From: Acidovorax sp. NB1
Lineage (GTDB): Bacteria > Pseudomonadota > Gammaproteobacteria > Burkholderiales > Burkholderiaceae_C
DNA length: 64,000 nucleotides
Direction: 5' to 3'
NCBI RefSeq assembly: GCF_005405905.1
Contig: NZ_BJHU01000016.1
Location: forward strand, 1-64,000
Shown here: piece by piece, positions 4,983 to 47,685 of the stretch
How positions within the stretch are numbered: the first letter of the stretch is position 1
Layout: each line of letters starts with the position of its first letter
The notes under the pieces: model-generated
What the model was told of the DNA's origin: nothing
What the model saw: the letters and a program-made list of their open reading frames with translations, nothing else
Database searches by the model: none
Position numbers and translations under genes: made by a program

Positions 4983-5072
<90 letters not shown>

Positions 5073-5156
5073 GAAGCCCTCGATTATAGCCACAGGTTCC
5101 CACCGATCTGAGAGAACGGCGGCATCGAAGGCAAAAAAACTGGTGCTTGTCCGTCC

Positions 5157-6074: not shown

Positions 6075-6125
6075 GGGAAACCTCTCTTTTTTTGTGAGCT
6101 GCAAAGCTAAAGTGATGGCCGGTCT

Positions 6126-6551: not shown

Positions 6552-6698
6552 GCTGAACCTCCTTGGGTCGGTTGTGTTTAGTGCACCACATTCTGGGTCA
6601 AAAGAGTGGCAGTTCAAAGGCGCGTCAACGTTATTCCTTACACTTCGCGCCTATTTCGTTTTTTGGCCGGGCAGGGCACGTTTGCACGGAGGCTGCGC

Positions 6699-8975: not shown

Positions 8976-9106
8976 CCAACCATGCCAGACAAGGAGCCTG
9001 GGCCTTTGGCTCCTGTCAAGAATCTGGCGAAAGTAAACGAAGACGGGTGTTACGGGCGCAACCTGTAGTCACTGTCTTTGCGCGGGTGTATATACACCTG
9101 CCTCCC

Positions 9107-9148
9107 AAAAATCGCTCCCCCGGCATGGCTGGCGGAGCGATTTTTTTT
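9107..9148 (+). terminator. Rho-independent terminator after the decarboxylase
   Basis: AAAAATCGCTCC (9107-9118) pairs with GGAGCGATTTTT (9134-9145), followed by more T. The loop is 15 bases. It separates the decarboxylase from the fasciclin gene. Nothing else is evident in 8976-9248. Confidence 0.85.
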
Positions 9149-9248
9149 GTGCACTTGAATCCGCTGAGGTGGCGCTGCCGTATTGACTCTTAGCCGCGTG
9201 GTTCGCATGCGGTGACGACTGTCTTCACCTACCTTTCAGGAGATTCTC

Positions 9249-9809
9249 ATGACCTTCCGATTCAACGCCCGCCTCGCCACCATTGCCCTGGCTGCTGCAG
9301 TGACCGCTGCTGCAGTGCCCGCGATGGCACAGGTCATGGTGGGCGGTGCGCCCATGCTGGCCAGCAAGGACATCATCGACAACGCCGTGAATTCCAAGGA
9401 CCACACCACGCTGGTGGCGGCAGTCAAGGCGGCTGGTCTGGTGGATACGCTCAAGGGCCCTGGTCCGTTCACCGTGTTTGCGCCCACCAATGCAGCATTT
9501 GCCGCATTGCCCGCAGGCACGGTGGACACGCTGCTCAAGCCCGAGAGCAAGCCCACTTTGACCAAGGTGCTCACCTACCACGTGGTGGCTGGCAAATACG
9601 ACGCAGCAGCCTTGTCCAAGCTGATTGCCGATGGCAAAGGCATGGCCAGCCTCAAGACCGTGGCGGGCGGCGCACTCACTGCCAAAGCCAGCGGCAACGC
9701 CATCATGGTGATGGACGAAAAGGGCGGTACGGCCACGGTGTCGATTGCCGATGTGTACCAGTCCAACGGCGTGATCCACGTGGTGGACAAGGTGTTGTTG
9801 CCCAACTGA
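9249..9809 (+). CDS. Secreted fasciclin (FAS1) domain protein
   Basis: The 186-aa protein has a Sec signal ending AVPAMAQ near residue 28 and a single FAS1 domain across the rest. Its two conserved boxes are visible: GPFTVFAPTNAAFAALP (H1) and NGVIHVVDKVLLP (H2), with the central YHV in between. FAS1 modules mediate cell-surface adhesion or polymer interaction, so the mature protein should be periplasmic or extracellular. A good ribosome site, CAGGAG (9237-9242), fixes the start. It is a single gene convergent with the DNA ligase. Confidence 0.92.
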   Translation: MTFRFNARLATIALAAAVTAAAVPAMAQVMVGGAPMLASKDIIDNAVNSKDHTTLVAAVKAAGLVDTLKGPGPFTVFAPTNAAFAALPAGTVDTLLKPESKPTLTKVLTYHVVAGKYDAAALSKLIADGKGMASLKTVAGGALTAKASGNAIMVMDEKGGTATVSIADVYQSNGVIHVVDKVLLPN

Positions 9810-9859
9810 TGGGTGATGATGGGCGAAAGGTAGGGTCGCCCGCAGCCTCCGCGCAGCCT

Positions 9860-10771
9860 TTAGCGAGGTGGCTGCATATCGCTCCGCACCCGCACAAAAC
9901 TTGCAAAACGCGGCAGGCCGCCGTCGTGCGTGCCGCGAAAGCGGTAGGTCACCCAGCTGCCAATGGGCGGCGGATCGGCGCGGTCGGCATCGGTCAGCCC
10001 TGCGCCCAGCTTGAAGCGCTGGCCGGTGGGCATTTCCACCAGCAGTGCGCCCAGCCGCCCGGCGTGTTTGCCCTTGCCGGGCAGGTGGCCCACCACCAGG
10101 GCCTCGGTGTCTTCGTGGGTTTTGAGTTTGATGAGATCGTCGCTGCGGCCCGAGCGGTACAGCGAACTGCCCTTGTGCAGCATCAGCCCCTCGCCGCCAG
10201 CGCGCACCGTGCGCTGCAGAAGGGCCTGCAGGGCAGCATCGGTGGCCACACGCTGCTGCGGCACGGCCTGCACCCAAGGCTGGTGGATTTGCGCCACCAG
10301 CGCTTTCAAGGCGGTGAGGCGATCGTCAAACGGGCCGGCCTGGGCGGGCAGGTCAAACACCATGAAGCGCATCTGCCGCCAGGCCGCATCGTCAGGCTGT
10401 TGCTGGCGCGTGGTGGACTGGGCATGTGCAAAACGCCCGCGCCCGGCCCACAGCTCGCCGTCCATGGGGGTGGCAGGCCAGCTTGCGGTGAACCACGCGG
10501 GCGCCGCCACGGTTTCACCGCCGCGCGTGCGCAGCGTGTGGCCGTCCCAATAGCCGCGCACGCCGTCGTACTTCTCGCTCACCCAATAGTCGGCCAGCGG
10601 CATGCCGGGGCGGTACACGTTGGCCAGCAGCAGGGCAGGGGGCTCTGCCGCATGCACTGCCGTCGCCGTGGGCAGCAGGCCCAGCATCGCCAGGCCCAGG
10701 CAGTGCCTGCGGGTTAGATTGCTATTGAAAATATAGCTGCTTGCGCTTGATGGACGCGCGGTAGCAGCCAT
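9860..10771 (-). CDS. Minimal ATP-dependent DNA ligase with signal peptide (Lig E type)
   Basis: The 303-aa protein has the minimal nucleotidyltransferase plus OB-fold layout of Lig E. The adenylation motif SEKYDGVRGYW puts the nucleophilic Lys near 67. Motif III-like MVFDLP and motif IV-like GGEGLMLH follow, then LIKLK (motif V). The OB domain is about 220-303. A hydrophobic segment with LTRRHCLGLAMLGLL before VHAAE indicates export, as expected for periplasmic Lig E, which is thought to act on extracellular or incoming DNA. The only ATG before the signal (10771) lies inside an interspersed repeat (10721-10777), so about 17 N-terminal residues are repeat-encoded. It stands alone, convergent with the fasciclin gene. 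Confidence 0.88.
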   Translation of the reverse strand: MAATARPSSASSYIFNSNLTRRHCLGLAMLGLLPTATAVHAAEPPALLLANVYRPGMPLADYWVSEKYDGVRGYWDGHTLRTRGGETVAAPAWFTASWPATPMDGELWAGRGRFAHAQSTTRQQQPDDAAWRQMRFMVFDLPAQAGPFDDRLTALKALVAQIHQPWVQAVPQQRVATDAALQALLQRTVRAGGEGLMLHKGSSLYRSGRSDDLIKLKTHEDTEALVVGHLPGKGKHAGRLGALLVEMPTGQRFKLGAGLTDADRADPPPIGSWVTYRFRGTHDGGLPRFASFVRVRSDMQPPR

Positions 10772-10777
10772 TTTTCT
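10721..10777 (-). repeat. Interspersed Comamonadaceae-type repeat, copy A
   Basis: Read on the minus strand it contains TACCGCGCG, CCATCAAGCGC and AGCTATATTTTCAATAGC, the three blocks shared by the eight copies in this window. It overlaps the 5' end of the DNA ligase gene and supplies its start codon. Confidence 0.75.
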
Positions 10778-10810
10778 TTAGATTTTGATGTGATCCGACG
10801 CGTGGTGTGC

Positions 10811-11611
10811 TCAGACTTGGTCGGCAGACAGGCCCGCCGTCTGGCTGAAGCCGCCGTCCACGTAGGTGATCTCGGCCGTCATGCCGCTGGCCAGGTCGGA
10901 CAGCAGGAAGGCTGCCACGTTGCCCACGTCTTCAATCGTCACATTGCGGCGCAGGGGCGAGGCATCGGCCACGCGGCTGAGCAGCTTGCCGAAGTCCTTG
11001 ATGCCGCTGGCTGCCAGGGTCTTGATGGGGCCCGCGCTGATGCCGTTGGCGCGGATGCTGCGGCCGTCTTCGGTGCGGCCCACGGCTTCGGCCAGGTAGC
11101 GCACCGAGGCTTCGAGGCTGGCCTTGGCCAGGCCCATGGTGTTGTAGTTGGGGATGGAGCGCAGCGCGCCCAGGTAGCTCAGGGTGATCAGCGACGACTT
11201 GTCATTCAGGTAGGGCAGGGCCGCCTTGGCCATGGCCGGGAAGCTGTAGGCGCTGATGTCGTGCGCAATGCGGAAGCCTTCGCGGCTCAGGCCTTCGAGG
11301 AAGTTGCCCGCAATCGCCTCGCGCGGCGCAAAGCCGATGCTGTGCACAAAGCCGTCAAATTGGGGCCAGGTCTGCGACAGCTCGGTGAACATGCGCTCGA
11401 TCTGCTCGTCGCTGGCCACGTCGCAGTCAAACACCAGCTTGGAGTTGAACTCGGCTGCGAAGTCGGTGATGCGGTCCTTGAAGCGCTCGCCCACGTAGCT
11501 GAATGCCAGCTCGGCACCTTGCTCGTGGCAGGCCTTGGCAATGCCGTAGGCGATGGAGCGGTTGGACAAAACACCTGTGATGAGCAGCTTCTTGCCGGTC
11601 AGAAAACCCAT
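10811..11611 (-). CDS. fabI: Enoyl-ACP reductase (NADH), FabI
   Basis: The 266-aa short-chain dehydrogenase-family enzyme reduces enoyl-ACP in the last step of each fatty-acid elongation cycle. It has the FabI-type nucleotide motif [15 protein letters not shown] at the N-terminus, [10 protein letters not shown], and catalytic Tyr146, Tyr156 and Lys163 in SYLGAL and [10 protein letters not shown], with length and numbering like E. coli FabI. The start at 11611 is preceded by AAAGGAGAT; the frame continues to 11683 but without support. It is divergent from the yej operon with about 100 bases between starts. Confidence 0.96.
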
Positions 11612-11715
11612 GTTCAATCTCCTTTTGGAATAGCGGAATGTGGGCCGGCGGGCGGGGGCATAGGGGTATGCGCTAAGTGCCACGGGGGCCGGCGAACGTA
11701 GTGCAGAATTGTCGC

Positions 11716-13545
11716 ATGCGCCTTGTAGCAGTCTGTTCTCGCTGGGCCCGCGCGGCGTTGTGTGCTGTGTGTGGCATGGTTTTGGGTCCTACCTCCTGGG
11801 CCGCACATGCCTATGCCCAATTCGGCGATGTGAAGTACCCGCCTGGTTTCACGCATTTTGACTATGTCAATCCGAGTGCTCCCAAGGGGGGCGAGATTCG
11901 CCTGGTTCCGCCGATTGCAGTCACCAATTTCGACAAGTTCAATCCGTTCACGCTGAAGGGAACGCCGCCTGCGGGGATGCTGGAGCTGGTTTTCGAGTCC
12001 CTGTTGATCGGCAATTCAGAGGAGCCGTCCACAGGGTATGGCTTGCTCGCAGAAGATGTGGAAGTGGCGCCGGATGGTTTGTCGGCCACCTTTCGCATTC
12101 GCAAGGAAGCGCGATTCAGCGATGGGTCTGCAGTGATGGCCGCCGATGTGGTCCATTCTTTCAACACCCTGATGAGCAAGCAGGCATCGCCGCAGTTCAA
12201 GACGATCTTTGGGGATATCAAAGCGGTCCGGGCCCTGGCTGAGCGCTTGGTCAAATTTGAATTTGCCAGTTCCAATCGAGAACTGCCGCTTGTGGCTGGG
12301 AGTGTCCCGGTCTTCAGCCGGAAATGGGGGGCTGGAAAGCCCTTCGATGCAGTCATCACAGATGTGCCCATTGCCTCGGGGCCCTACCGGCCCTCCAGTG
12401 GGCAGCTGGGGCGCGACATCACCTACGTTCGCGACAAGAACTACTGGGGGGCTTCCTTGCCGGTGCGCAAGGGTCTCTATAACTTCGATCGCATCACCTA
12501 CAAACTCTATCTCGATGACACCAGCCGGTTTGAGGGACTCAAAGCGGGTGAATATGACCTGAAGCGGGAGTTCGTTTCCAAAAACTGGGCGCGCCAATAC
12601 AAGGGTAAGGCCTTTGACTCCGGAGCCGTCAAGAAGCAGGTGTTCGAGCACCGCAATCCTGGTGATTTCCAGGGCTACACATTCAACCTGCGCAACCCCA
12701 AGTTCAAGGACATTCGCGTTCGCAAGGCCATTGCGCTGACGATGGACTTCGAGTGGCTCAATCGCCAGATGTTTTATGGTTTGTACAAGCGGGTGGAGGG
12801 GTATTTCCCGAACAGTGACTTCCATGCGTCGGGGCTGCCAGGGCCTGCAGAAATGGCTTTGCTGGAGCCGCTGCGCGACAAGCTGAGTCCCGACGTGTTT
12901 GGCCCGGCCTTGCGATCACCGAGTACGCTGCCTCCATCCAGTTTGCGGGACAACCTGCGCCAGGCGAAACAGTTGCTGGCGGAGGCAGGCTGGGTCTACC
13001 GTGACGGAGCCCTGAGAAATGCCCAGGGCGATGCGTTTGAGATGGAGTACCTGAATGCACAGCCGTCCTCGGTGCGGCTGGTCAGCCCCATGCAGATTGC
13101 TTTGAAAAAGCTGGGGATCAATCTGAAGATACGCAATGTGGACGGAGCCCTCTACCAGCAGCGAATGGATGAGTTCGAATTCGAGCTGGGCAGCCTTCGC
13201 ATACCAGGACGGACTTCCCCAGGCAGCGAACTTTTTGAATACTTTGGCTCCAAGGCCGCCGCGACACCCGGCTCGGCCAACATGTGGGGCATTGCCGATC
13301 CGGCAGTGGACAGCCTGATTCGTTCCGTGCTCAGTGCCCAGACCAAGGCGGATGTATCGGCTGCGATGCGCGCGCTGGATCGTGTTTTGTCCCACGGCTA
13401 TTACTCGATTCCCCAGTGGTACAGCGATGAGTTTTTCGTGGGCTATCGGCCCGCTGGTTTTGTGTTGCCCTCGACAATTCCGCCCTATTACCAGCCGGAT
13501 TCTTGGGCTGCCGCCACGTGGTGGGCTTCGCCAACCAACCGCTAG
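11716..13545 (+). CDS. yejA: Periplasmic oligopeptide-binding protein, YejA-like
   Basis: This 609-aa family-5 solute-binding protein starts with a long signal (to about AHAYAQF near 37). [19 protein letters not shown] and the FNPFTLKG region are the signature of the YejA/microcin-C subgroup, and the large lobe includes [16 protein letters not shown]. It would deliver oligopeptides to the inner-membrane permeases encoded next. The start at 11716 is the ATG that begins the signal; the frame opens earlier (11677). It is the first gene of a four-gene transporter operon with very short or overlapping junctions. Confidence 0.9.
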
Positions 13546-13556
13546 GGTCACACCGC

Positions 13557-14600
13557 ATGCTCAGCTACATACTCAAACGCATCTTGTTGATGGTGCCCAC
13601 GCTGCTGGGGGTGCTGCTGCTGACCTTTGTGGTCATCCAGTTTGTGCCCGGCGGGCCGGTGGAGCAACTGGTGTCGCAGTTGCAGGGGCGCTCCTCTGGT
13701 GGGGAGGGGGCTTCGCCGAGTTCAGGAGCAGGGGGGGACTACCGTGGCCGCCAAGGGTTGAGCCCGAAGCAACTGGAGGAAATCAAGGCGCTGTACGGGT
13801 TCGACAAGCCTGCGCATGAGCGCTTCGCGCAAATGCTTTGGTCGTTTGCACGGTTTGACCTCGGGCAGAGCTTCTATCAACGAAAGGCCGTCTCTGACCT
13901 TGTGCGTGAAAAGCTCCCCGTTTCAATAAGCCTGGGTCTGTGGACTTTTTTCATCAGCTATCTGGTGGCCGTGCCGCTGGGTGTGGCAAAGGCGGTGCGG
14001 GCCGGGTCACGGTTTGATCTGGTCACCACCTTGCTCATCCTGGTCGGCTACGCCATACCCGGCTTCGTGCTGGGTGTGGCGCTCTTGGTGATCTTCGGCG
14101 GGCAACTGCAGTGGTTTCCGCTTCGGGGGCTCACATCGGCCAACTGGGAGCAACTGTCCTGGGGCGCGCGCATCGTGGACTATTTGTGGCACATCACGCT
14201 TCCCGTCACGGCCATGGTGCTGGGCAGTTTTGCCGTCACGGCCATGTTGACCAAAAACGCGTTCCTCGAGGAAATCCGCAAGCAGTATGTGCTCACGGCC
14301 CGCGCCAAGGGCCTGAGCGAGCGCCAGGTGCTGTGGAAGCATGTGTTCCGCAATGCGCTGATTCCCATCATCACGGGCTTTCCCGCTGCCTTCATCGGCG
14401 CGTTCTTCGCAGGTTCGCTGCTCATCGAAACCCTGTTCTCGCTCGATGGCCTGGGTCTGCTCAGCTACGAGAGCGTGATCCGCCGCGACTACCCGGTGGT
14501 GCTGGGCACGCTGTATTTGTTCACGCTGATCGGGCTGTTGACCAAGCTCATCAGCGACCTTTGCTATGTGTGGGTGGACCCGCGCGTGAAGTTTGACTAG
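13557..14600 (+). CDS. yejB: Oligopeptide ABC transporter permease, YejB-like
   Basis: The 347-aa inner-membrane permease has an N-terminal helix (LKRILLMVPTLLGVLLLTFVV), a periplasmic region with a Gly/Ser-rich insert, and five more helices. The BPD-type EAA loop (VLTARAKGLSERQVLWKHVFRNA) contacts the ATPase. It begins 11 bases after yejA and overlaps the next gene by eight. It pairs with YejE to form the channel. Family assignment rests on order and on similarity to DppB/YejB permeases. Confidence 0.92.
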   Translation: MLSYILKRILLMVPTLLGVLLLTFVVIQFVPGGPVEQLVSQLQGRSSGGEGASPSSGAGGDYRGRQGLSPKQLEEIKALYGFDKPAHERFAQMLWSFARFDLGQSFYQRKAVSDLVREKLPVSISLGLWTFFISYLVAVPLGVAKAVRAGSRFDLVTTLLILVGYAIPGFVLGVALLVIFGGQLQWFPLRGLTSANWEQLSWGARIVDYLWHITLPVTAMVLGSFAVTAMLTKNAFLEEIRKQYVLTARAKGLSERQVLWKHVFRNALIPIITGFPAAFIGAFFAGSLLIETLFSLDGLGLLSYESVIRRDYPVVLGTLYLFTLIGLLTKLISDLCYVWVDPRVKFD

Positions 14601-15669
14601 CCCGAACGCACCGATGGCCCCGATGAGTCCTGCCGCTACACCGCTTTCACTCTCCCCGTCCCGCCGCGCCTGGCTGCGCTTCAAGCGCAACCGTCTGGGG
14701 TACTGGAGCCTGCTCATTTTCTGCGCCCTGGTGCTGATCAGCCTGGGGGCTGAACTGGTCAGCAATGACAAGCCGCTCATCGTGCGTTACGAAGGGCAGA
14801 CCTATTTCCCCATGCTCAAGGACTACCCCGAAAAGACTTTCGGGGGTGACTTCGAGACCCCCACGGATTACCTTGACCCTTTCATCAAGGAGCGGCTGAG
14901 CATGGGCAGCAATTGGGCGCTGTACACCCTGAACCCCTACGGCCCCAACACGCTCAACTACTTTGCCAAGGCGCCCAACCCCTCGGCCCCCACGGCCGAC
15001 AACTGGCTGGGCACGGACGACCGGGGGCGTGACCTGCTCGCGCAGCTGCTGTACGGCTTTCGGGTGAGTGTGTTGTTTGGCCTGGCGCTCACCATGACCG
15101 GCGTGATTCTGGGGGTGGTCACTGGCGCCATCCAGGGGTTTTTTGGCGGCAAGACCGACCTTGCCTTTCAGCGGTTTATCGAGATCTGGGGCTCCATGCC
15201 CGAGCTGTATTTGCTGATCATCTTCAGCGCGGTGTTTGCGCCCAGTGTGTCGCTGCTGCTCATTTTGCTGAGCCTGTTCGGCTGGATGGGGCTGTCGGAC
15301 TATGTGCGTGCCGAGTTCCTGCGCAACCGTCAGCTCGACTACGTGAAGGCGGCCCGCGCGCTGGGGGTGAGCAATACGCAAATCATCTGGCGGCACATCC
15401 TGCCCAACAGCCTCACGCCCGTGGTCACCTTTTTGCCGTTCCGCATGAGTGCGGCCATCCTGGCACTCACCTCGCTCGACTTTCTGGGCCTGGGGGTGCC
15501 GCCCGGCACGCCGTCGCTGGGCGAGTTGCTGAGTCAGGGCAAGAACAGCATTGATGCGTGGTGGATCTCGCTGTCTACCTTTGCCGTGCTGGTCACGACC
15601 CTGTTGCTGCTGACGTTCATGGGCGATGCGCTGCGCGATGCGCTCGACCCCAGAAAGGCCGACCTGTGA
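14593..15669 (+). CDS. yejE: Oligopeptide ABC transporter permease, YejE-like
   Basis: The 358-aa permease has an N-terminal helix (YWSLLIFCALVLISLGAEL), a long periplasmic insert (about 60-140, as in YejE), GTDDRGRDLLAQLLYG, then five helices and the EAA loop (YVKAARALGVSNTQIIWRHILPN). The frame opens with TTG at 14593, overlapping the end of yejB; ATG at 14614 or 14623 are alternatives. It overlaps or abuts the ATPase gene. Confidence 0.92.
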   Translation: MTSPNAPMAPMSPAATPLSLSPSRRAWLRFKRNRLGYWSLLIFCALVLISLGAELVSNDKPLIVRYEGQTYFPMLKDYPEKTFGGDFETPTDYLDPFIKERLSMGSNWALYTLNPYGPNTLNYFAKAPNPSAPTADNWLGTDDRGRDLLAQLLYGFRVSVLFGLALTMTGVILGVVTGAIQGFFGGKTDLAFQRFIEIWGSMPELYLLIIFSAVFAPSVSLLLILLSLFGWMGLSDYVRAEFLRNRQLDYVKAARALGVSNTQIIWRHILPNSLTPVVTFLPFRMSAAILALTSLDFLGLGVPPGTPSLGELLSQGKNSIDAWWISLSTFAVLVTTLLLLTFMGDALRDALDPRKADL

Positions 15670-15686
15670 TAGCGACCTCATCGGCC

Positions 15687-17312
15687 ATGAATCTCGCCTT
15701 GCTGCAGGTACAGGACCTGCATGTGCGCTTTGGCCCTAAAGAGGTGGTGCGTGGCGTCAACCTCCACATTGCCGCAGGCGAAAAGCTTGCCCTCGTGGGC
15801 GAGTCCGGCTCGGGTAAGACCATCACCGCGCTCAGCCTGCTGCGCCTGGTGGGCGATGCCACCATCACCGGTCAGGCCCACCTGCAAGGGCGTGGCGACC
15901 TGCTGGCATTGACCGAGCGCGAGATGCGCGGTGTGCGCGGCGACGACATTGCCATGGTGTTCCAGGAGCCCATGACCGCGCTCAATCCATTGATGACGAT
16001 TGGCGCGCAGATTGCCGAAATTTTGCAGCTCAAGCGCGGCCTCACAGGCGCCCAGTGCGCGCAGGCCACCATCGATCTGCTGGCACAAACGGGCATCCCC
16101 GAGCCCGCGCGCCGTGCCAACAGCTTTCCGCACCAGCTCAGCGGCGGCCAGCGCCAGCGCGCCATGATCGCCATGGCCCTGGCCAGCGCGCCCAAGCTGT
16201 TGCTGGCCGACGAGCCCACCACGGCGCTGGACGTGAGCCTGCGCGGGCAGATACTGGACTTGCTGAGCGACCTGCAACGTCAGACCGGCATGGCCGTGCT
16301 GCTCATCACGCACGACCTGAACCTGGTGCGCCGCTTTGCCGACCGCGTGGCCGTGATGGAGCAGGGCGTGCTGGTGGAGCAGGGCACCGTGGCCGATGTG
16401 TTTGGCGCCCCGCAGCATGCCTACACCCGCCGCCTGATCGCCAGCCAGCCGCGCCGCGATGTGGTCGAGGCCGACCCGCCTGCTGACACCGCGCCCGTGG
16501 TGCAGACGCAGGATCTGCGCGTGGCCTACCCCACGCCGCTGCCGGGCCTGAAGGGCTGGTTCCAAAAGGGCGAGTTTGTGGCGGTGCAGGGCGCCGCGCT
16601 GCAATTGCTGCCGGGGCAGACGCTGGGCGTGGTGGGCGAATCGGGCTCGGGCAAGTCCACGTTGGCCCAGGCCATCCTGGGGCTGTTGCCTGCCAAGGGG
16701 CAGTTGCAGGTGGGCGGCCAGGCGTGGCAGCAGCCCGCCATGCGCAACACGCCCACCAACCAGCAGTTGCGCCGCCGGGTGCAGGTGGTGTTTCAAGACC
16801 CGTTCTCGTCCCTGTCGCCGCGTCTCACGGTCGAGGAGATCGTGGGCGAAGGCCTGAAGGTGCACGAACCAACGTTGACCGTGGCCGAGCGCCGCAGCCG
16901 CGTGGAAGCCATGCTGGCCGAGGTGGGCCTGACCGAAGCGCAGTTCCCGCGCCTGCTGGCGCGCTATCCGCACGAATTCTCGGGCGGCCAGCGCCAGCGC
17001 CTGGCCATTGCGCGTGCCCTCATCGTGCAGCCGCAGGTGCTGGTGCTGGACGAACCCACCAGCGCCCTCGACGTGACCATCCAGCAGCAGGTGCTGGGCC
17101 TGTTGCAGCGCCTGCAAAAAGAAAAAGGCCTGAGCTACCTGCTCATCACCCACGATGTGGATGTGATCCGCGCCATGGCGCACGATGTGCTGGTGATGAA
17201 GGATGGCGCGGTGCTGGAAAGCGGCCCTGTGAATGTGGTGCTGGATGCGCCGCAACACCCCTACACGCAGCGCCTGGTGGCGGCTGCCAGCGCACCGGGC
17301 GTGGCGGGCTGA
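15687..17312 (+). CDS. yejF: Dual-domain oligopeptide ABC ATPase, YejF-like
   Basis: The protein (541 aa from ATG 15687) contains two complete ABC ATPase domains. The first has GESGSGKT, LSGGQRQR and LLLADEP; the second has GESGSGKS, FSGGQRQR and VLVLDEP. Each is followed by an oligopeptide-type tail (QHAYTRRLIASQP, QHPYTQRLVAA). It powers the YejBE channel, and the fused form is typical of YejF. A GTG at 15666 overlaps the yejE stop and gives a seven-residue extension, so coupling is possible. It ends the four-gene operon. Confidence 0.93.
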   Translation: MNLALLQVQDLHVRFGPKEVVRGVNLHIAAGEKLALVGESGSGKTITALSLLRLVGDATITGQAHLQGRGDLLALTEREMRGVRGDDIAMVFQEPMTALNPLMTIGAQIAEILQLKRGLTGAQCAQATIDLLAQTGIPEPARRANSFPHQLSGGQRQRAMIAMALASAPKLLLADEPTTALDVSLRGQILDLLSDLQRQTGMAVLLITHDLNLVRRFADRVAVMEQGVLVEQGTVADVFGAPQHAYTRRLIASQPRRDVVEADPPADTAPVVQTQDLRVAYPTPLPGLKGWFQKGEFVAVQGAALQLLPGQTLGVVGESGSGKSTLAQAILGLLPAKGQLQVGGQAWQQPAMRNTPTNQQLRRRVQVVFQDPFSSLSPRLTVEEIVGEGLKVHEPTLTVAERRSRVEAMLAEVGLTEAQFPRLLARYPHEFSGGQRQRLAIARALIVQPQVLVLDEPTSALDVTIQQQVLGLLQRLQKEKGLSYLLITHDVDVIRAMAHDVLVMKDGAVLESGPVNVVLDAPQHPYTQRLVAAASAPGVAG

Positions 17313-24743: not shown

Positions 24744-24984
24744 GGTGGTGTCCTCTCCGGTGTTTTGGTTGTGTGATCGGGCCCAGCCCGCGCGCCCGGA
24801 GTATGCAGGAGCTTGATGCTCAGATCGGGCACGCAGGCGACTCTGCACAGGTGCTTTGAACACTGGACAATTTGTAAACTCGCTGCCTCGGCGCACTGGA
24901 CAAGGCGGTAAGGGACAGAGGCAGGGCTGCTCCGCACAATCTCCACACTCCACCACTGCAGGCCTTCAACCCCGTTCGAGTCCC

Positions 24985-25815
24985 ATGTCGCAGAACACAC
25001 TCACGCTACAACTGTTCTTTGAAGATCCGATCAAGCTCAAGATCGGCCAGCTGGTCTACCAGTACATGTGCGCAGACAACACCGAGCAGGCCCAGCGCTG
25101 GGCCAACAAGCTGGGCGCCCCTAGCCTGGAGGCGCTGTGGGACATGGAATGGTTCAACCAGTCCGCGTCCGCCGCGCCGTCGCACCTGGTGCTGCAGTTC
25201 GACACCGGCACCAGCGGCGACCTGCCCTTGCTGCAGATCGAAACCCTGTTCAGGCACGGCCTGCAGGCTGCGGTGCTGGAGGTGTTCTACGACCAGGTCG
25301 GGGAAACCGAGCGCATGCACTTCGACCGGGGCCAGTGGGTGTCACGCCAGGCGTTCACGGACGCCAACCCGCAGTGGCGCGCTGAGGTGGAGCCCGCGCA
25401 CCAGGACGGCGAAAGCCACGACGGGGAGGCCGAAAACCGCTACGCCTGTTCCAAAGACCCGGCCAAGCCGCTGGCCGTGGCCAAGCTGCGCCAGCAGGAA
25501 GAAAAGCGCAAGCGCGAGGCCCGGGAGGCGGCCGAGGCGTTTGTCGAAATGGCGCGGGCCATGGGCAAAAGCGGCAAGTCGCCCGTGCAGGGGCTGATGG
25601 CCGTGCTGCTGTTGCGGGCCGGGTTCAAAGGGCTGGTGCATGCGGTGGTCTTTACGGTGGTCACCGTGCTGCTGTTCAAGGGCTTCTGGCTGTGGATGGG
25701 CGTGGGGCTGGTGCTGGCCGTGGCGCTGCCGCTGTACTACATGGCCACTGAACACAAAGAGCTGCGCGGGGACGACGGGGACGATGGCCCCGCCACGGTG
25801 ATGGCAGCGCAGTAA
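24985..25815 (+). CDS. Hypothetical membrane protein with cytoplasmic N-terminal domain
   Basis: I do not recognise this 276-aa protein. The first 140 residues are soluble and mixed (LQLFFEDPIKLKIGQLVYQY ... LVLQFDTGTSGDLPLLQIE). A charged helical region (KLRQQEEKRKREAREAAEAFVEMA, about 175-195) follows, then two adjacent membrane helices (about 215-255), and an acidic tail. It starts a short same-strand run with the next membrane protein (24 bases later) and, after about 140 bases, the HTH/STAND pair, so functional linkage is possible. It is divergent from the PhnD-like gene. Confidence 0.65.
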   Translation: MSQNTLTLQLFFEDPIKLKIGQLVYQYMCADNTEQAQRWANKLGAPSLEALWDMEWFNQSASAAPSHLVLQFDTGTSGDLPLLQIETLFRHGLQAAVLEVFYDQVGETERMHFDRGQWVSRQAFTDANPQWRAEVEPAHQDGESHDGEAENRYACSKDPAKPLAVAKLRQQEEKRKREAREAAEAFVEMARAMGKSGKSPVQGLMAVLLLRAGFKGLVHAVVFTVVTVLLFKGFWLWMGVGLVLAVALPLYYMATEHKELRGDDGDDGPATVMAAQ

Positions 25816-25839: not shown

Positions 25840-26301
25840 ATGCTGACGCAAATCGAATGGTGGGGCGGGGTGATTTTTGTGCTGGGGGCACTGACCTACC
25901 GCATGGTCATGGGGGCGCTGGAGCGGCCGGTGGAGGGCTTCCCCTGGTATCGGCTCATGATGCACGTGTTCTTTCTGGCCCCGGCCGCGCTGCTGGCGGG
26001 CTATTTCTATCCGCTCACGCAGCCCGCGCTGCAATACGGCTACCTGACGCTGCTGGCCATTTCGCTGCTGATCGTGGCCGTGATGCTGGTGCAGGAGATG
26101 ACCGGCGATTCGGGTGAGGGCAAAGAAGAGGGGCGCAGCAAAGAGCCCTTGAAGGAGGGCGCAAAAGCCGAGGCCGAAGACTACGAAGAGCCCGGCTGGC
26201 TGATGTCGGTGGTCGGCGCCATCGTGCTGTACAGCCCGGTGCTCACGGCCTGTGGCTTGGCCTGCGCCAAGGCTTGGCCCATGGTGCAGCCGCTGCTCTA
26301 G
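25840..26301 (+). CDS. Hypothetical four-helix membrane protein
   Basis: The 153-aa protein has hydrophobic helices at about 8-25, 40-60, 67-88 and 122-145, with a charged cytoplasmic loop (GEGKEEGRSKEPLKEG) between the third and last. Trp-Trp and Tyr residues cluster at the N-terminus. A clear CAGGAG site lies upstream. It follows the preceding membrane protein with 24 bases between and is likely co-transcribed. No family was recognised. Confidence 0.68.
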   Translation: MLTQIEWWGGVIFVLGALTYRMVMGALERPVEGFPWYRLMMHVFFLAPAALLAGYFYPLTQPALQYGYLTLLAISLLIVAVMLVQEMTGDSGEGKEEGRSKEPLKEGAKAEAEDYEEPGWLMSVVGAIVLYSPVLTACGLACAKAWPMVQPLL

Positions 26302-26437: not shown

Positions 26438-27673
26438 ATGTCTGCCGATTCTTTTGCCGATCTCCTGTCGATCTACATGCGCCGCATCCGCGCCAGCGCC
26501 TCGGGTGTGGCCACCGAGATCGGCCTGAGCCGTGAGGCCGTCAACAACTGGCGCAACGGCATCTCGGTGCCCAACCCGCGCTCGCGCGACAAGCTGGTGG
26601 CCTGCACCCGCTACCTGCGCCTGACCGAGAGCGAGGCCAATCGGCTGCTCAGCGCCGCAGGGTTCGCGCCCGAGTTTCCGCTGCAGGCCGAATCTACCGG
26701 CGCGCAGCCGTTTGCCGCGTTCCAGGACAAGGTGTTTGCGCAGCTGGCGCAGGCGGTGCCGTACCCCATCTCGCTGCTGCTGTCGCCTGCGCATTGGGGC
26801 CAGCCGCCGTTCCGGCACGAGCTGCTGCAGCGCGCCCGCGCGCAGTATGGCGAGGGTTCGGTCCTGCACATCCAGCCTCCCTACAGCGTGAGCACCGTGC
26901 CCGCCGAATACTTCGCCGCCATCGGCCGCCAGTGCGGGCTGGGCGATGTGGTGTCGGACTACGAATTCGAGTCCGCTCTGGAGCGCCGCTTGCTGGCGGG
27001 CGAGCGCATCTTCTGCCTGGTCAGCCGCTTTGAGCAGGGCACGCCCGCGCTGCGCGAAACCCTGGCGGGCATCCTGCGCAGCCTGAGCGAGATGCACAGC
27101 GGCCGCCTGCACCTGCTGCTGTGTGGCGGCGAGGCGCTGGCCGACCTCAAGTACCGCAGCGGCGACCTGTCGCTGCTCAACATCGCACAGGTCCACCACT
27201 GGCCCGACCCGACGCAGGACGACCTCCTGCAACTGGCCCACCACCGCTGGCCCGAGCACCGCTGGAGCCCCCCCGTGGTGGCCGCGCTGCAGGCGCTCAG
27301 CGGCGGCCACCCCGCGCTGTTTGAAGAAGGCCTGCAGTGGCTGGTGGACCACCCGGCGACGGACGAGGGCGTGAGCGAAGAGGCCGCATCGTCCAGCGCA
27401 CTGCGCACCCACCTGGCCAGCAGCCCGCGCCTGTGGCAAACGTTTCTGCCGCTGGCGCAGGCGCCTGCGAGCCGGGCGCGCCTGCAGCAGTTGCTGAGCG
27501 CCGACGACCTCGGCCGCGCGCGGCCCTACCTGCAGGACGACGACCTGCGCAGCCTGTTCTGGGGCAACCTTATCCTGGCGCGTGGCACGGGCGATGCGGC
27601 GCGGCTGCACTGGCGCAGCCCCACGGTGCGCGAGGCGGGCTGGATGGTGCTGGATTCATGCTCGGCCGACTGA
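26438..27673 (+). CDS. XRE-HTH protein fused to a degenerate STAND-like ATPase domain
   Basis: The 411-aa protein opens with an HTH (about 5-75: VATEIGLSREAVNNWRNGISVPNPRSRDKLV in pattern). The rest resembles a P-loop STAND/AAA module with the catalytic parts eroded. LLLSPAHWGQPPFRHELLQ sits where Walker A would be, without the GxxGxGKS pattern. IFCLVSRFEQG replaces Walker B. LHLLLCGGEAL and ALSGGHPALFEEGLQWL resemble the sensor and Gly-Gly-His-Pro motifs of STAND proteins. Its 3' end overlaps the following ATPase gene by 16 bases, so the two are co-translated and probably interact. The role is unknown; a regulator or pseudo-ATPase partner is my inference. Confidence 0.6.
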   Translation: MSADSFADLLSIYMRRIRASASGVATEIGLSREAVNNWRNGISVPNPRSRDKLVACTRYLRLTESEANRLLSAAGFAPEFPLQAESTGAQPFAAFQDKVFAQLAQAVPYPISLLLSPAHWGQPPFRHELLQRARAQYGEGSVLHIQPPYSVSTVPAEYFAAIGRQCGLGDVVSDYEFESALERRLLAGERIFCLVSRFEQGTPALRETLAGILRSLSEMHSGRLHLLLCGGEALADLKYRSGDLSLLNIAQVHHWPDPTQDDLLQLAHHRWPEHRWSPPVVAALQALSGGHPALFEEGLQWLVDHPATDEGVSEEAASSSALRTHLASSPRLWQTFLPLAQAPASRARLQQLLSADDLGRARPYLQDDDLRSLFWGNLILARGTGDAARLHWRSPTVREAGWMVLDSCSAD

Positions 27674-29874
27674 TGCCCTGGCTGTCCCGGCCCGTGGTGC
27701 GCGCCGTGGTCATTGCGCTGGTCACGCTGTTTGTGGCCAGCGCCTTGTTTCTGCCCCAGCACAACCCGGCCACGCGCGGCAGCTTTCTGGCGTCGATGAA
27801 CGCGGGGCCCGTGTGGGGCGAGCTGGTGCAGTGGCGTGTGGCCATGGTCAACGCGCGCAACGAGCTGGGTGCCTGGCCCACCGACATTCAGAAATACGCG
27901 CCCCCCATTGCCAACCCGCAGTTGCGCGTCACGTCCCCGCGCCCCAACGTGCTGCAGGCCGACATTGCCCACAACCCTGAATTGGGCAAGCTGGCGGGCG
28001 CGCAGGTGGTGGTGGAGCTGCAGCGTGGCGGCCACGACTGGACCTGCAGGCCGGGCACGCCGCCCATTCCTGTCGGCTACCTGCCCATCAACTGCCTTGA
28101 AGGCGCTGCCAACGACTTTGAGCCCGCCAAGCCTGCGCCGGACGCGGACCCCTTCGGCTGGGTGCGCTCGCTGATTGCCTGGTGCGCCGTGATCTTTGGC
28201 GTGGGTGCCGTGCTGTGGGTGGTGCGTCACCCACTCATCGGTGCGGGCCAGCTGCGCCCTGCGCGCCTGCGCCGCACGCCGTTGGCGCGACTGCCGCACA
28301 TCGACCGGCTGCTGCGCTGGCTGCGGCGGCTGGAGCCCACACTGCTGGCTGCCGACATCCGCATGGTGGACTGGCGCCGCGCCGTGGCCTGCGCTCAGGC
28401 CACGGGCAGTGAACGCGCCGCAGCCCTGGCGCGTGCGCTGGCCGAACGTGTGTCCGCCCGCTGCCAGCCCAGCACCGATTGGGCACTGCCCGGTGCGGTG
28501 TTTGAATGGTCGTTCCCGCCCGACCTGCCCGTGTCGCTGGACCGCTGCCTCGTCTTTGTGCCCACGCCCGGCATCGACGAAGCCACCGTGCTGCGCCAAC
28601 TGCGCGCCGTGCAGACCGGCAGCGACGTGCTGCTGATCCTGAGCGAGCACAGCGTGGACACACCCTGGCCGCTGCTGAACGCCCACACCCAAGACCGCGC
28701 CAACCTGCATGTGATGGCCGACAGCGCCAGCCAGACCGAATGGCTGATCGGCGGCGACGCCCTGCAAGTGTTGCTGCGCCTGCTGGCCGCGCAACTGCGC
28801 ATCACGCGCATATCGCCCTACCAGACGCGCGGCGGCGTCACGCGCGAAGGCGCCTTCTTCGGCCGCGCCCAGTTGCTGGCCCGTGTCATCAACCGCGAGC
28901 CCGCCAACTACCTGGTGGTGGGCGGGCGCCAGTTGGGCAAAAGCAGCCTGCTCAAGGCCGTGCAGCGCCGTATGGCGGGCCACCCGCACACCGTGTGCCA
29001 CTACGTCTCGCTGCGCGACCACCGGCTGGCACCGCGCATGGCGCTGCAGTTTGGCCTGGCGGCCGACACACCGCTCGAAGCCATCGTGGACCACCTGCAG
29101 GCGCAGTACCAGGGCAAACGCCTGGTGCTGCTCATCGACGAGGCCGACCTGTTCTTCCGTGACGAATCGGCCAACGGCTACGTGCAGCTCTCTACCCTGC
29201 GCGCACTCAGCGAAGAGGGACGCTGCTGGTTCATGCTCGCGGGCTTCTGGGACCTGTATGCCACGGCCGTGCTCGACTACCAAAGCCCGCTGCGCAACTT
29301 TGGCGAGGTGTTGACCATCGGCGGCTTGGAGCGCGATGCCTGCCGCGAGCTGGCCACCGAGCCGCTGCGCAAATTGCGCCTGGGCTTTGACAACGAGCGC
29401 CTGGTGGACCGCCTGGTGGACGCCAGCGGCCAGCGCGCCAACCTGGTCGCCATCCTGTGCCAGGAATGCCTGGAGGCGCTGGCGCCCGGCGAGCGCGTGA
29501 TCGAAAAGCGCCATCTCGACCAGGCCCTGGCCTCGCAGGCCGTGCAAGACGCGTTGGCGGGCTGGGGCCGTCTGAGCCACGACGACGCCGCCTGCCGCCT
29601 CGACCGCATCGTGGTCTACCACACGGCCCAGGCGGGGCAGTCCAGCCTGGTCACGCTGGCCCAGCTGCTGCAAAGCCACGGCATCGCGGGCGACGCGCAG
29701 GCGCTGCGCCAGTCGCTGGCGCGCCTGCAACTGGCCTATGTGCTGCGCAAGCACGAGGCGGGCGAATACCGCTTTGCTATCCCGCTGCTACAGGACCAGT
29801 TCGAGCCGACCGAGGTGGAACTGCTGCTGCACCAGGAGCTGGCCGTGCTGGCGCGCAGTGACGCCAAAGTATGA
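27658..29874 (+). CDS. Membrane STAND-type ATPase with pilin-like extracytoplasmic domain
   Basis: The 738-aa product begins with a membrane helix (about 13-33). The 40-150 segment follows the pattern of type IV pilin globular domains, including NELGAWP and a Cys130-Cys146 pair in HDWTC ... YLPINC, the usual D-region. A second helix (about 168-190) returns the chain to the cytoplasm. After a 200-residue linker comes a STAND/AAA module: FFGRAQLL, Walker A GGRQLGKSS (422-430), Walker B LVLLIDEAD (489-497), then LAGFWDLYA and a winged-helix-like C-terminus. The start overlaps the HTH gene. An extracytoplasmic sensor that switches a cytoplasmic ATPase is my inference. Reading frame and P-loop are solid; the pilin likeness is by pattern. 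Confidence 0.65.
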   Translation: MLGRLMPWLSRPVVRAVVIALVTLFVASALFLPQHNPATRGSFLASMNAGPVWGELVQWRVAMVNARNELGAWPTDIQKYAPPIANPQLRVTSPRPNVLQADIAHNPELGKLAGAQVVVELQRGGHDWTCRPGTPPIPVGYLPINCLEGAANDFEPAKPAPDADPFGWVRSLIAWCAVIFGVGAVLWVVRHPLIGAGQLRPARLRRTPLARLPHIDRLLRWLRRLEPTLLAADIRMVDWRRAVACAQATGSERAAALARALAERVSARCQPSTDWALPGAVFEWSFPPDLPVSLDRCLVFVPTPGIDEATVLRQLRAVQTGSDVLLILSEHSVDTPWPLLNAHTQDRANLHVMADSASQTEWLIGGDALQVLLRLLAAQLRITRISPYQTRGGVTREGAFFGRAQLLARVINREPANYLVVGGRQLGKSSLLKAVQRRMAGHPHTVCHYVSLRDHRLAPRMALQFGLAADTPLEAIVDHLQAQYQGKRLVLLIDEADLFFRDESANGYVQLSTLRALSEEGRCWFMLAGFWDLYATAVLDYQSPLRNFGEVLTIGGLERDACRELATEPLRKLRLGFDNERLVDRLVDASGQRANLVAILCQECLEALAPGERVIEKRHLDQALASQAVQDALAGWGRLSHDDAACRLDRIVVYHTAQAGQSSLVTLAQLLQSHGIAGDAQALRQSLARLQLAYVLRKHEAGEYRFAIPLLQDQFEPTEVELLLHQELAVLARSDAKV

Positions 29875-45809: not shown

Positions 45810-46695
45810 ATGACCCACCCCCACGCCCCATCCGCCTTCACCGATCCCGCCGCCGTCGCCCGCTACGCCGAAGGCCCCCGCCGCAACGTGCCCGGCTACG
45901 ACAGCCTGCTGCGCATGTCGCGCATCCTGCTGGCCGAGCGCGTGCCCGCCCACGGCCGCGTGCTGGTGGTGGGTGCGGGCGGCGGGTAGGAGCCTGTCGG
46001 GCTTGGAGCGTCGATAGCGAAAATTGGCCCCAGCGAGGACAGTTTTTGCCGGATTTGCAGCCCCATAGCCTGGCTATGGGGCAAAAAGCCGGGGAAAAAC
46101 GGACCGCTGCGGTCAATTTGCAGCCGACGATTTCAAGCCCGGCAGGCTCCGACAGCTGGAAGACATGGCGCTGGCACACCCCGGCTGGCGGTTTGACGGC
46201 GTGGACCCCAGCCAGCCCATGCTGGGCCTGGCGGCCCAGCGGTTGCAGAGCGCGGGGGTGCCCGGCGACCGCGTGGCGCTGCACCACGGCTATGTGCCGA
46301 GCGCACCTGCCGGGCCGTTTGATGGCGCGACGTGCCTGCTGACTTTTCACTTTGTGCCGCGTGAGGAGCGCATGCCCATGCTGGCGAAGATCCGGCGGCG
46401 GCTCAAGCCCGGCGCACCGCTGGTGGTGGCGCATCTGAGTGTGGCGGATGGTGCCGGCCCTGGCGGCGATGGCGGGGCAGGGGAGCGCGATCTGTGGCTG
46501 TCGCGCTATGCCGCGTTTCAGGTGGCGTCCGGCGTGCCGCCGGAGCATGCGGCCAGGGCGCGGGACAAGGTGGCTGCGGAATTGGCGGTGTTGACGCCGG
46601 GGGAGGATGAGGCGATTTTGAGCGAGGCGGGGTTTGGCGATGTACGGCTGTTTTACAAGGGGTTTGCGTTCAGGGGGTGGGTCGCTTGCGCGTGA
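45810..46695 (+). pseudogene. SAM-dependent methyltransferase gene interrupted by a 162-bp element
   Basis: The first 59 residues (to GRVLVVGAGGG at 45986) end at the SAM-binding glycine motif. The remaining 176 residues (from MALAHPGWRFDGVDPSQPML at 46165) continue the class I methyltransferase fold with LTFHFVPREERMPML and end at 46695. Between 45986 and 46156 is about 169 bp containing a hairpin element and a stop codon. Removing it restores a continuous frame through GAGGGLEDMALAHP. The gene therefore looks freshly knocked out by insertion, with both halves otherwise intact. Confidence 0.8.
45989..46150. mobile_element. MITE-like palindromic insertion (162 bp)
   Basis: The ends GGAGCCTGTCGGGCTT (45989-46004) and AAGCCCGGCAGGCTCC (46135-46150) are inverted repeats with one mismatch. 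Similarity continues inward, and the centre has the exact palindrome GCCCCATAGCC-T-GGCTATGGGGC. The whole element can fold as one long imperfect hairpin. It has no coding capacity and sits inside the methyltransferase gene. I see no convincing target duplication, and no second copy in the window. Confidence 0.75.
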
Positions 46696-46753
46696 TCGGC
46701 ATGAAATGCCGTACTCGGCCACTAGCAGTCGGTGGTGGCAGGTGAAAGCGGAC

Positions 46754-46811
46754 GCTCAACGTTGGAGTTCAGCGGCTGTCGAAGGCAGTCTGCTGCAACG
46801 AAGGGTTAGGC
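46754..46811 (-). repeat. Integron attC site (58 bp)
   Basis: On the minus strand it runs from GCCTAAC (RYYYAAC core) to GTTGAGC (GTTRRRY core), with CGTTGCAGC and GCTGAAC arms between that pair with an extra base, as in attC hairpins. The length is that of a short 59-base element. It lies downstream of the two minus-strand genes, where a cassette attC belongs. Confidence 0.72.
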
Positions 46812-46820
46812 CTGCGAGTT

Positions 46821-47168
46821 CTAGTCCCCGATGCTCTTGACGCCCGAAATCTTCGCCCGAATCTTGGCTAGGCGATCCGGGATGCCAAGAGCGTGGCGCT
46901 TCGCCGAGAGAAAAAGAGCATTCATGAAGTCGTAATCGGACCCACCCGCGTCTACATACCAAGTGTCCAATGTGTTTCCCGCAAGGTCACGCAGGGCGAA
47001 AGAAACGAAACCCTCATCAGTTCTTTCATCCGTTCCGGCCCAAAGCACAAACTTGTTGTCGTCAATCGTGATCTCCACACTGTGTTGATCAGACTTCCAG
47101 GTTGCTTTTCCGCTGTCCGTCAGCTTATAGAGATCGTTCAACAGATCGCGGTAGTCTTTTGGAATCAT
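46821..47168 (-). CDS. Cassette-borne hypothetical protein
   Basis: I do not recognise this 115-aa soluble protein (DYRDLLNDLYKLTDSGKATW ... VEITIDDNKFVLWAGTDERT). It has no signal or membrane helix and a Lys/Asp-rich surface. Its composition is lower in GC than the core. ATG at 47168 overlaps the stop of the preceding membrane protein (ATGA), so both are translated together. The 10 bases between its stop and the attC fit a cassette end. Confidence 0.7.
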   Translation of the reverse strand: MIPKDYRDLLNDLYKLTDSGKATWKSDQHSVEITIDDNKFVLWAGTDERTDEGFVSFALRDLAGNTLDTWYVDAGGSDYDFMNALFLSAKRHALGIPDRLAKIRAKISGVKSIGD

Positions 47169-47665
47169 GGCACTGTACTCACGGTTGATACTAGGCGACT
47201 GGCGTTTGCTGCAAGTTGGGTGTGGAGTCTGGACGTGCGATGGATCAACGCCTCGCGTTCGTCAGCGGTCCAGCGATTCGCAACGGCGATCGACTCTAGA
47301 CGTTCATGCAAACTGTCGACCTCCTCCCTTACCTTAGTCCACAGCGTTGTCTCCGACGCAGACTCTTTGGATGAAGGCTGGTATTTGGATACGGCATCTC
47401 TCAACTCGAAGGCTGCTGCTGCTGCTGCTGCAAGGTTTTTTGACTTGATTAAGTTCAGTAGATTACGCGAGCGACCGGCAATATCCTGCAGTGTAGACAC
47501 CGCGTACATCTTGCGTACTCCATCTACGGCTTCTGCCGCAGAATCCCGTGCTGCCTCCGCCGCGGCTTTAGTCTTCCAGATCTGCCAGATCGCAATAGCG
47601 AAGCCCGCGATTGAAACCAGCAGCCCCAACACGCCAACGATGTCCATGCCGGAGAGGTTTGTCAT
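47165..47665 (-). CDS. Cassette-borne membrane-anchored coiled-coil protein
   Basis: The 166-aa protein starts with one membrane helix (MDIVGVLGLLVSIAGFAIAIWQIW) and then a mostly helical cytoplasmic domain (EAARDSAAEAVDGVRKMYAV ... LHERLESIAVANRW). A GCT-type trinucleotide run (47414-47433) encodes a seven-Ala stretch. No catalytic motif is visible. The single N-terminal helix plus a coupled small partner is a layout seen in defence and signalling cassettes, but no function is assigned. It begins 20 bases after the cassette boundary. Confidence 0.7.
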   Translation of the reverse strand: MTNLSGMDIVGVLGLLVSIAGFAIAIWQIWKTKAAAEAARDSAAEAVDGVRKMYAVSTLQDIAGRSRNLLNLIKSKNLAAAAAAAFELRDAVSKYQPSSKESASETTLWTKVREEVDSLHERLESIAVANRWTADEREALIHRTSRLHTQLAANASRLVSTVSTVP

Positions 47666-47685
47666 ACCTGGTTCGGATGCCTAAC

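Follow-up and report, generated by a model that had tools for sequence, protein, structure and literature searches.

The predicted nSTAND2 conflict operon consists of two adjacent STAND genes, one of which is eroded and carries variable effectors, most commonly GT4 or HEPN (PMC8195603). The iSTAND MoxR-vWA ternary systems include an inactive STAND protein fused to an N-terminal TIR or EAD, with some members situated at the membrane (PMC7159879). In the PilS-PilR/PilA system, a membrane sensor reports the state of pilin to transcription (PMC6058289). Here we analyse a 64,000-nucleotide stretch of DNA from Acidovorax sp. NB1 (positions 1 to 64,000 of contig NZ_BJHU01000016.1, referred to throughout as the window), which contains two overlapping genes, P0002 and P0001. 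P0001 encodes a membrane protein whose exported domain is predicted to adopt a pilin fold and whose cytoplasmic half is predicted to be a STAND ATPase, while P0002 encodes a protein with a putative helix-turn-helix (HTH) domain and a STAND-like module. Sequence comparisons and structure models make it probable that the two genes encode a transmembrane STAND system, with P0001 as the receptor that would switch its putatively DNA-binding partner, P0002.

Exported domain of the receptor

The receptor family was compared across 80 related loci, labelled in the form L0xx. Alignment A2 covers residues 30-172 in 62 rows, comprising the window protein and 61 of these loci, and leaves out L031 and L078, which are cut by contig ends, as well as the non-pilin loci L091-L103 and L105-L108. 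Alignment A1 leaves out L001 (self), L009, L011 and L020 (stop within the matched range), the fragments L027 and L028, and two genomes without the locus.

The open reading frame, its coordinates and the motifs named in the original prediction (NELGAWP at residues 68-74, C130, C146, GGRQLGKSS at 422-430 and LVLLIDEAD at 489-497) are correct (Table 1). Transmembrane (TM) helices were called where the mean hydropathy over 19 residues reached at least 1.6. By this measure the second helix (TM2) is present in 62/62 homologs and the first (TM1) in 60/62, with L061 (1.56) and L082 (1.41) falling below. The exported segment is bracketed by two membrane helices, as had been proposed, and the second is followed by an Arg-rich stretch, which fits an orientation with the N-terminus inside, the exodomain outside and the ATPase inside.

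The AlphaFold2 model of the exodomain, built on A2 with model residue 1 corresponding to residue 30 of P0001, consists of one long helix and four strands. Its mean predicted local distance difference test score (pLDDT) is 86.8, with values of 96-97 over model residues 11-90, 87-92 over 91-110, 77 over 111-120 and 52-57 beyond. When this model was searched against the PDB with Foldseek, ranks 1-16 were type IV pilins, with probabilities up to 1.00 and a best E-value of 4.0e-3. The VIA comparison with the PDB likewise places pilins in its first 29 rows (Z 9.4-4.2), the first 11 of them at Z of at least 8.3.

Sequence profiles were also used to examine this resemblance. A profile of residues 9-172 was scored on 555 open reading frames of the related loci, 38 with a pilin motif and 517 others; the top 15 all carry the prepilin motif, and the 16th is a non-pilin at E 0.0028. 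The alignment of this profile with pilins runs from TM1 through the second cysteine (C146), with TM1 matching the membrane half of pilin helix α1. Because the top-scoring pilin, L113, came from a profile of the same receptor family, L115 (E 1.8e-7) is taken as the best pilin found independently. The whole-protein profile of P0001 retrieves a genuine prepilin gene from a different genome of the order (E 1.1e-4), and the Pfam family PF00114 (Pilin) matches 15/62 homologs, with a best E-value of 3.9e-6. In a sequence-profile search of the PDB, the five best matches of the exodomain are pilins, at E-values of 0.18-0.4 that are insufficient alone. The α1 spine, the four-stranded sheet and the D-region cysteine pair of pilins are all found in the exodomain, the disulfide itself being a prediction. 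Model, Foldseek, VIA and profiles agree in assigning the exported domain of P0001 a type IV pilin fold, which bears out the pilin D-region features read in this segment by the original prediction; pilins, and not an unrelated fold, head the structural matches.

P0001 is not a pilus subunit, since the class III prepilin motif (G-x-[TS]-[LIVM]-[ILVM]-E, with a hydrophobic x) is found in the N-terminal region of 0/62 homologs, a second TM helix is present and an ATPase is attached. The single TM helix and free C-terminal globular domain of a pilin are thus lacking throughout the family. Conservation within the exodomain is highest in the D-region (mean 0.63 versus 0.36-0.46 elsewhere, over 27 non-redundant rows), and the spacing of its two cysteines is constant, whereas the last two cysteines of the 38 pilin-motif reading frames lie 9-32 residues apart. 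In pilins, the D-region is the variable region. A D-loop that is conserved and fixed in length suggests one conserved contact and speaks against a diversifying phage-binding surface.

The full P0001 gene occurs in 22/36 genomes of the genus at an identity of at least 71%, and is absent from the other 14. W73, P74, C130 and C146 are invariant in 62/62 homologs, despite exodomain identities down to ~20%. This carriage and invariance place the architecture of P0001 far beyond chance.

As a separate observation, the exodomain profile gave four non-receptor matches in 300 genomes of the order. The one inspected, L149:577-1782 (E 1.3e-8), reads by eye as GYF_2, RDD and a C-terminal pilin domain, a further sign that pilin folds may be reused as modules.

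Cytoplasmic half of the receptor

The P-loop ATPase that the original prediction placed behind TM2 proves to be of the STAND/NB-ARC type by domain search and structure model. AAA_22 matches P0001 above the Pfam cut-off (E 1.4e-7), and nSTAND1 matches 2/23 homologs (best E 6e-7). The AlphaFold2 model of residues 192-738 has a pLDDT of 89.9, and its VIA rows mainly span model residues 188-545. It matches archaeal MNS ATPases at Z 21.2 and 20.4 over approximately model residues 200-545, plant NLR NB-ARC cores at Z 17.7-15.5 and CED-4 at Z ~16. The Walker A pattern and the upstream F-x-GR motif are each present in the receptors of 79/80 loci; the strict Walker B pattern is found in 64/80, and the D-E-x-D columns are invariant in 51/51 rows. 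The family therefore combines Walker A, Walker B and F-x-GR with a modelled core of nucleotide-binding domain (NBD), helical domain and winged helix, the composition of a STAND module, for which ADP/ATP-gated oligomerisation would be expected.

In the α/β domain that links TM2 to this module, no acidic or basic residue is conserved at 90% (51 rows). An arrangement of elements resembling PD-(D/E)XK was considered for residues 192-385 and is not claimed, the acidic residues there being unconserved.

The partner gene and its pairing with the receptor

The partner gene P0002, missed by the original prediction, precedes the receptor gene on the same strand. Its A4 profile matches the HTH structure 2kpj at E 0.0037. 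The Walker A motif is found in 0/70 partners, a count that leaves out L031 and L045 with their short open frames. The core of the partner is likely, though not proven, to be an eroded STAND fold, as judged from sequence.

Pairing of the two genes is close to constant. P0002 occurs in exactly the same 22/36 genus genomes as the full receptor, and a partner lies upstream of the receptor in 75/80 related loci (71 found by tblastn and 4 by profile). In the remaining 5/80 the receptor open frame starts less than 250 bp from the start of the locus, where the partner side is cut. Partner and receptor frames overlap or lie at most 60 bp apart in 64 of the 71 loci found by tblastn, while ~300 bp separate them in L091 and L095.

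Exchange of sensors and effectors among relatives

Both ends of the system vary among distant relatives. The sensors ahead of the shared cytoplasmic half were scanned in ten distant receptors; nine carry WD40 and one (L093) carries NHL. A hydrophobic helix stands ahead of the ATPase half in 14/14 propeller-type receptors examined, and export of the WD40 and NHL propellers is likely on this sequence evidence, although inferred. On the partner core, the HTH is replaced by TIR in L091 (E 3.2e-15), L095 (E 1.4e-9) and L102 (E 1.3e-25), by two hydrophobic helices (by eye) in L098 and L101, and by SIR2 in the Myxococcota loci L105 and L106. A four-sequence search recognises the partner core in all four Myxococcota loci, L105-L108 (E 1e-16 to 8e-19).

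A tree of the cytoplasmic halves was built from the 51 rows of alignment A3, in which L092 was placed with the NHL receptors though its sensor was not seen. The 40 pilin-type rows form one side of a branch with support of 89/93, and without the long-branched Marinicella row the remaining 39 do so with support of 100/97. This single branch makes one gain of the pilin sensor probable. The partner of L093 has an HTH that aligns with that of P0002, yet the sensor there is NHL, so that sensor and effector appear able to change independently. Since sensors and effectors are swapped among relatives, a signalling role for the pair is a reasonable inference.

In the L095 partner (L095:4216-5721), a short helical stretch seen by eye before the TIR is a candidate effector-associated domain.

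Proposed mechanism

The mechanism that we propose would begin when the pilin-like domain makes contact with a ligand or a protein, the surroundings of the conserved D-loop being the likeliest site. The signal would pass through TM2 and the α/β domain to the STAND module, which would be released from an ADP-locked state. The released core could then assemble with the STAND-like module of the partner, and the partner HTH domains would be brought together or released, altering the transcription of target genes. Because the effector in the pilin branch is an HTH, the output is most likely transcriptional. Our guess for the input is the state of the envelope, for example the pilin pool or its assembly state, or else some other protein or ligand of the periplasm; phage particles are conceivable as input, with no positive evidence for them.

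A broader proposal, which we put forward tentatively, is that these proteins represent a class of transmembrane NLR-like receptors in Pseudomonadota, SAR324 and Myxococcota. In such a class, a pilin fold or an NHL or WD40 propeller would serve as the exported sensor and act through a STAND ATPase on an eroded STAND adaptor with an exchangeable effector (HTH, TIR, SIR2 or TM stretches). Receptors of the pilin branch might then mimic pilins, monitor the state of pilins or of pilus-using agents in the inner membrane, and reprogram transcription.

Several observations weigh against P0001 and P0002 forming a transmembrane STAND receptor and its DNA-binding partner. For the exodomain, no Foldseek match to a pilin in the PDB falls under E 0.001, and a Pfam pilin match is missing for P0001 and for 47/62 homologs. 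An N-terminal hydrophobic stretch exceeds the threshold in just 6/14 propeller-type receptors. AAA+ initiators also fit the ATPase model well (ORC2 Z 19.3), which leaves the two top-scoring (MNS) rows, those of the NLRs and CED-4, and the motifs as the basis for the STAND label; the L102 receptor is without the Walker A pattern. On the partner side, the HTH_31 and HTH_3 matches lie under the Pfam cut-offs, the AAA_35 matches to the core lie barely under the cut-off in two relatives (L102, E 1.2e-5; L091, 7.2e-5), and homology between partner core and receptor ATPase is weak (hhalign probability 21%). The partner is not always adjacent, with one gene intervening in L098 and L101, 1.5 kb in L092 and 4.6 kb in L096, and its frame is broken in L045. 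The 160 bases upstream of each partner gene showed no palindrome in common (61 stretches word-counted, 19 read), so that a DNA target of the partner HTH is hypothetical.

Table 1. Positions in the window of the receptor and partner genes, their predicted parts and the genes ahead of them
Feature	Coordinates	Strand	Description and basis
Receptor gene P0001	27658..29874	+	738 aa; TM1, predicted pilin-fold exodomain, TM2, α/β domain, STAND ATPase
TM1 (residues ~13-34)	27694..27759	+	Hydropathy; N-terminus predicted cytoplasmic
Predicted type IV pilin-fold periplasmic domain (residues 35-147)	27760..28098	+	AlphaFold2 model, Foldseek, VIA; PF00114 in homologs
D-region loop C130-C146	28045..28095	+	15 residues between the cysteines; same length in 62/62 homologs
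TM2 (residues ~171-190)	28168..28227	+	Hydropathy; followed by Arg-rich stretch
α/β linker domain (residues ~192-385)	28231..28812	+	AlphaFold2 model; aligns in WD40/NHL receptors too
Predicted STAND NTPase (NBD, helical domain, winged helix)	28813..29871	+	AAA_22, AlphaFold2, VIA
Walker A	28921-28947	+	GGRQLGKSS
Walker B	29122-29148	+	LVLLIDEAD
Partner gene P0002	26438..27673	+	411 aa; putative HTH and P-loop-less STAND-like module; overlaps receptor gene by 16 bp
Putative XRE-like HTH of partner (residues ~3-65)	26444..26632	+	Effector position; profile match to HTH structure 2kpj
U1	24964..25815	+	283 aa; C-terminal hydrophobic stretch (by eye); same strand, co-occurs with the pair in the genus
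U2	25840..26301	+	153 aa; hydrophobic (by eye); between U1 and partner

Neighbouring genes and mobility

Two further genes accompany the pair in the window. Of the 22 genus genomes with the pair, 21 also carry U1, which is found in 0 of the other 14; among the related loci, U1 recurs in 34/80 and U2 in 28/80. Pfam gives no match above the cut-off for U1 and no match for U2. The gene between partner and receptor in the Thiotrichaceae loci L098 and L101 is a DUF1016 gene (L098:5302-6354 and L101:5136-5801), which in L098 also carries a YhcG PDDEXK nuclease domain. DUF4132 proteins are encoded directly behind the receptor in L061:10200-13940 (Pseudomonas) and L070:10167-13076 (Massilia), and an usher gene lies upstream of the L095 partner at L095:1283-3748. 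In the Xanthomonadales loci L072, L077, L081, L082 and L089, a promoter-like pair, TTGAC-spacer-TAGsGT, was seen by eye near the partner start. Within the window, positions 1-16000 have a G+C content of 57-65%, compared with 64-70% over most of the remainder and 59.5% at 46001-48000, and contain a tRNA-Ser at 4983-5072; this segment is a possible island.

Records of mobile elements contain the receptor in part or not at all. Plasmid matches are limited to ATPase fragments in eight records, covering at most 36% of P0001, with the whole gene in none, and the receptor is absent from the phage records. Three IMG/VR contigs with a receptor homolog (L144-L146) represent the ends of Delftia-like chromosomes next to an inovirus-like cassette; IMG/VR can show only phage-adjacent cases, and three contigs are no sample. 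The cassette lies directly behind the receptor (L144:4485-9394, L145:2289-5956 and L146:3556-8457), and its reading frames appear by eye, without profile support, to include a replication initiator, an ssDNA-binding-like protein, a coat-like protein and a Gly-rich minor coat protein. In L056, L058 (which shares its record with L024) and L025, the receptor stop is followed by a 15-mer that we take to be dif-like by its resemblance to the E. coli dif core and at which the cassettes start. The window showed no such 15-mer, nor did the other loci examined, among them L052 (labelled Delftia sp.). The presence of the cassette behind the receptor is explained by the dif-like site at their junction; phage carriage of the receptor was rejected, and the cassette neighbours are read as dif integration and not as a functional link. 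The receptor copy of L146 (L146:2218-3472) has lost ~950 bp from the end of TM1 to the start of the STAND module, taking with it the pilin domain, TM2 and most of the α/β domain, and its frame is broken.

Alternative explanations

An anti-phage or other conflict system, with the receptor sensing invaders at the envelope and its HTH partner turning on a defence or dormancy programme, is a possible but rather doubtful account of the pair. Relatives carry the same partner core with TIR or SIR2, the SIR2 parts matching ThsA and LmuA and the TIRs of L102 and L091 matching TIR defence models (that of L095 matches none). The combination of a STAND gene with an eroded STAND gene bearing swapped effectors also resembles nSTAND2 as predicted (PMC8195603), and the pair is accessory in the genus. 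The tree of cytoplasmic halves, however, groups broadly by lineage, and some flanks are shared across loci: the LysR gene of the window lies near the receptor in 17/80 loci and its tricarboxylate-receptor-like gene in 16/80 (identity of at least 75%; names by eye), while neighbours elsewhere include gyrA and CTI. The shared flanks, the partial plasmid matches, the lack of phage records and the host origin of the IMG/VR contigs all count against a conflict role, as do the fixed length of the D-loop and the search of PADLOC-DB, in which P0001 matches PDC-S01 only (E 0.024) and P0002 has no match; across the family, PDC-S01 models match up to 20/51 receptor homologs (best E 4.7e-5), and mad1 matches 1/34 partners (E 0.0035).

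It is unlikely that P0001 is an accessory regulator of type IV pili, whose pilin-like domain would touch pilins or the pilus platform and report pilin inventory or retraction. Such a role would suit a domain that aligns with the whole pilin fold, including the TM helix, in the same orientation as in pilins, and PilS-PilA offers a precedent in Pseudomonas aeruginosa (PMC6058289). A PilT-family ATPase is present in 48/48 receptor-bearing genomes searched, but the background of 96/100 family genomes means that this co-occurrence carries no information on a pilus link. In 8 related loci, none of the 10 neighbour proteins scanned was recognised as a type IV pilus protein; the family lacks the prepilin motif, and 14 genus genomes are without the full receptor. 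The original prediction had suggested phage or pilus recognition as the input; beyond the fold itself, this finds no positive support, as pilus-gene neighbours, PilT co-occurrence and D-loop diversity all fail to provide it. What stands of the exported sensor wired to a signalling ATPase is the architecture, a predicted pilin-fold domain joined through TM2 to a STAND module, with signalling as the reading that we favour for it.

An exodomain that serves as a structural spacer or dimeriser, using the pilin fold while sensing nothing and leaving signalling to the cytoplasm, is improbable. The exodomain does evolve much faster than the ATPase, at 20-21% versus 57-59% identity in L077 and L081, but its invariant W73, P74, C130 and C146 and the raised conservation of the D-region do not fit a mere spacer, and in other receptors propeller domains occupy the same place. 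A resemblance to pilins that arose by convergence, or through a short Cys motif matching by chance, to which the weak E-values of single-protein sequence searches, of the PDB profile search and of Foldseek might point, is scarcely credible given the profile alignment from TM1 to C146, the fold match and the PF00114 matches.

Comparison with known systems

As a proposed transmembrane STAND receptor with a DNA-binding partner, the P0001-P0002 pair most resembles nSTAND2, in that an active and a putatively eroded STAND gene are adjacent and the eroded one carries a variable effector; the STAND fold of the partner is itself suggested by weak profile evidence. The likeness, drawn by description, ends at the effectors, which in the partners scanned are HTH, TIR, SIR2 or TM stretches in place of GT4 or HEPN. 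The section describing nSTAND2 names no exported sensor, and the words 'pilin' and 'periplasmic' are absent from the main text of that paper (PMC8195603). The iSTAND systems share with the TIR-bearing relatives of P0002 a TIR on an inactive STAND protein, but they need MoxR and vWA genes (PMC7159879). None of these was found among the 18 neighbour proteins of relatives scanned, most neighbours being unscanned, or in U1 and U2, and the word 'pilin' is absent from the main text of PMC7159879.

Individual parts of the receptor have relatives of their own. With the major type IV pilins (PF00114), P0001 shares the predicted fold, the TM-plus-helix spine, the D-region cysteine pair and the W-x-C...LP-x-x-C signature; it differs in lacking the prepilin motif, in its second TM helix and fused ATPase, and in the fixed length of its D-loop. 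The archaeal MNS-type ATPases (PABY2304, 2qen; SSO1545, 2fna), plant NLR NB-ARC and CED-4 have in common with it the core from NBD to winged helix (Z 21.2, 20.4, 17.7 and 16), while their output parts are unlike those of the P0001 system, and we know of no exported sensor in these chains. The STAND core of Avs3 (8dgc) appears at rank 43 in the Foldseek list of the P0001 ATPase. Avs antiphage proteins are soluble, single-chain sensor-effector proteins, and no Avs model is among the PADLOC matches of 51 receptor homologs. PilS resembles the proposed receptor in role, as a membrane sensor passing the state of pilin to transcription; it belongs to the histidine kinases and is not known to contain a pilin domain. 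No description of a pilin domain joined to a STAND or NTPase sensor was found in the open-access PMC literature, outside which most subscription papers lie.

If the proposed mechanism is true, the pilin fold gains a role as a receptor module, and the swap between HTH and TIR or SIR2, two domains familiar from immunity, makes it possible to ask how one switch serves gene regulation in certain bacteria and possible defence in others. The pair is tractable, comprising two overlapping genes in a soil Acidovorax. The bacterial STAND and NLR-like systems compared here are described as sensing inside the cell, whereas in this locus the core appears to be linked across the membrane to its sensor and, separately, to an effector, both of them exchangeable. 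Paired STAND signalling is already known; what this locus adds are exchangeable, membrane-tethered sensors, in this case with a predicted pilin fold.

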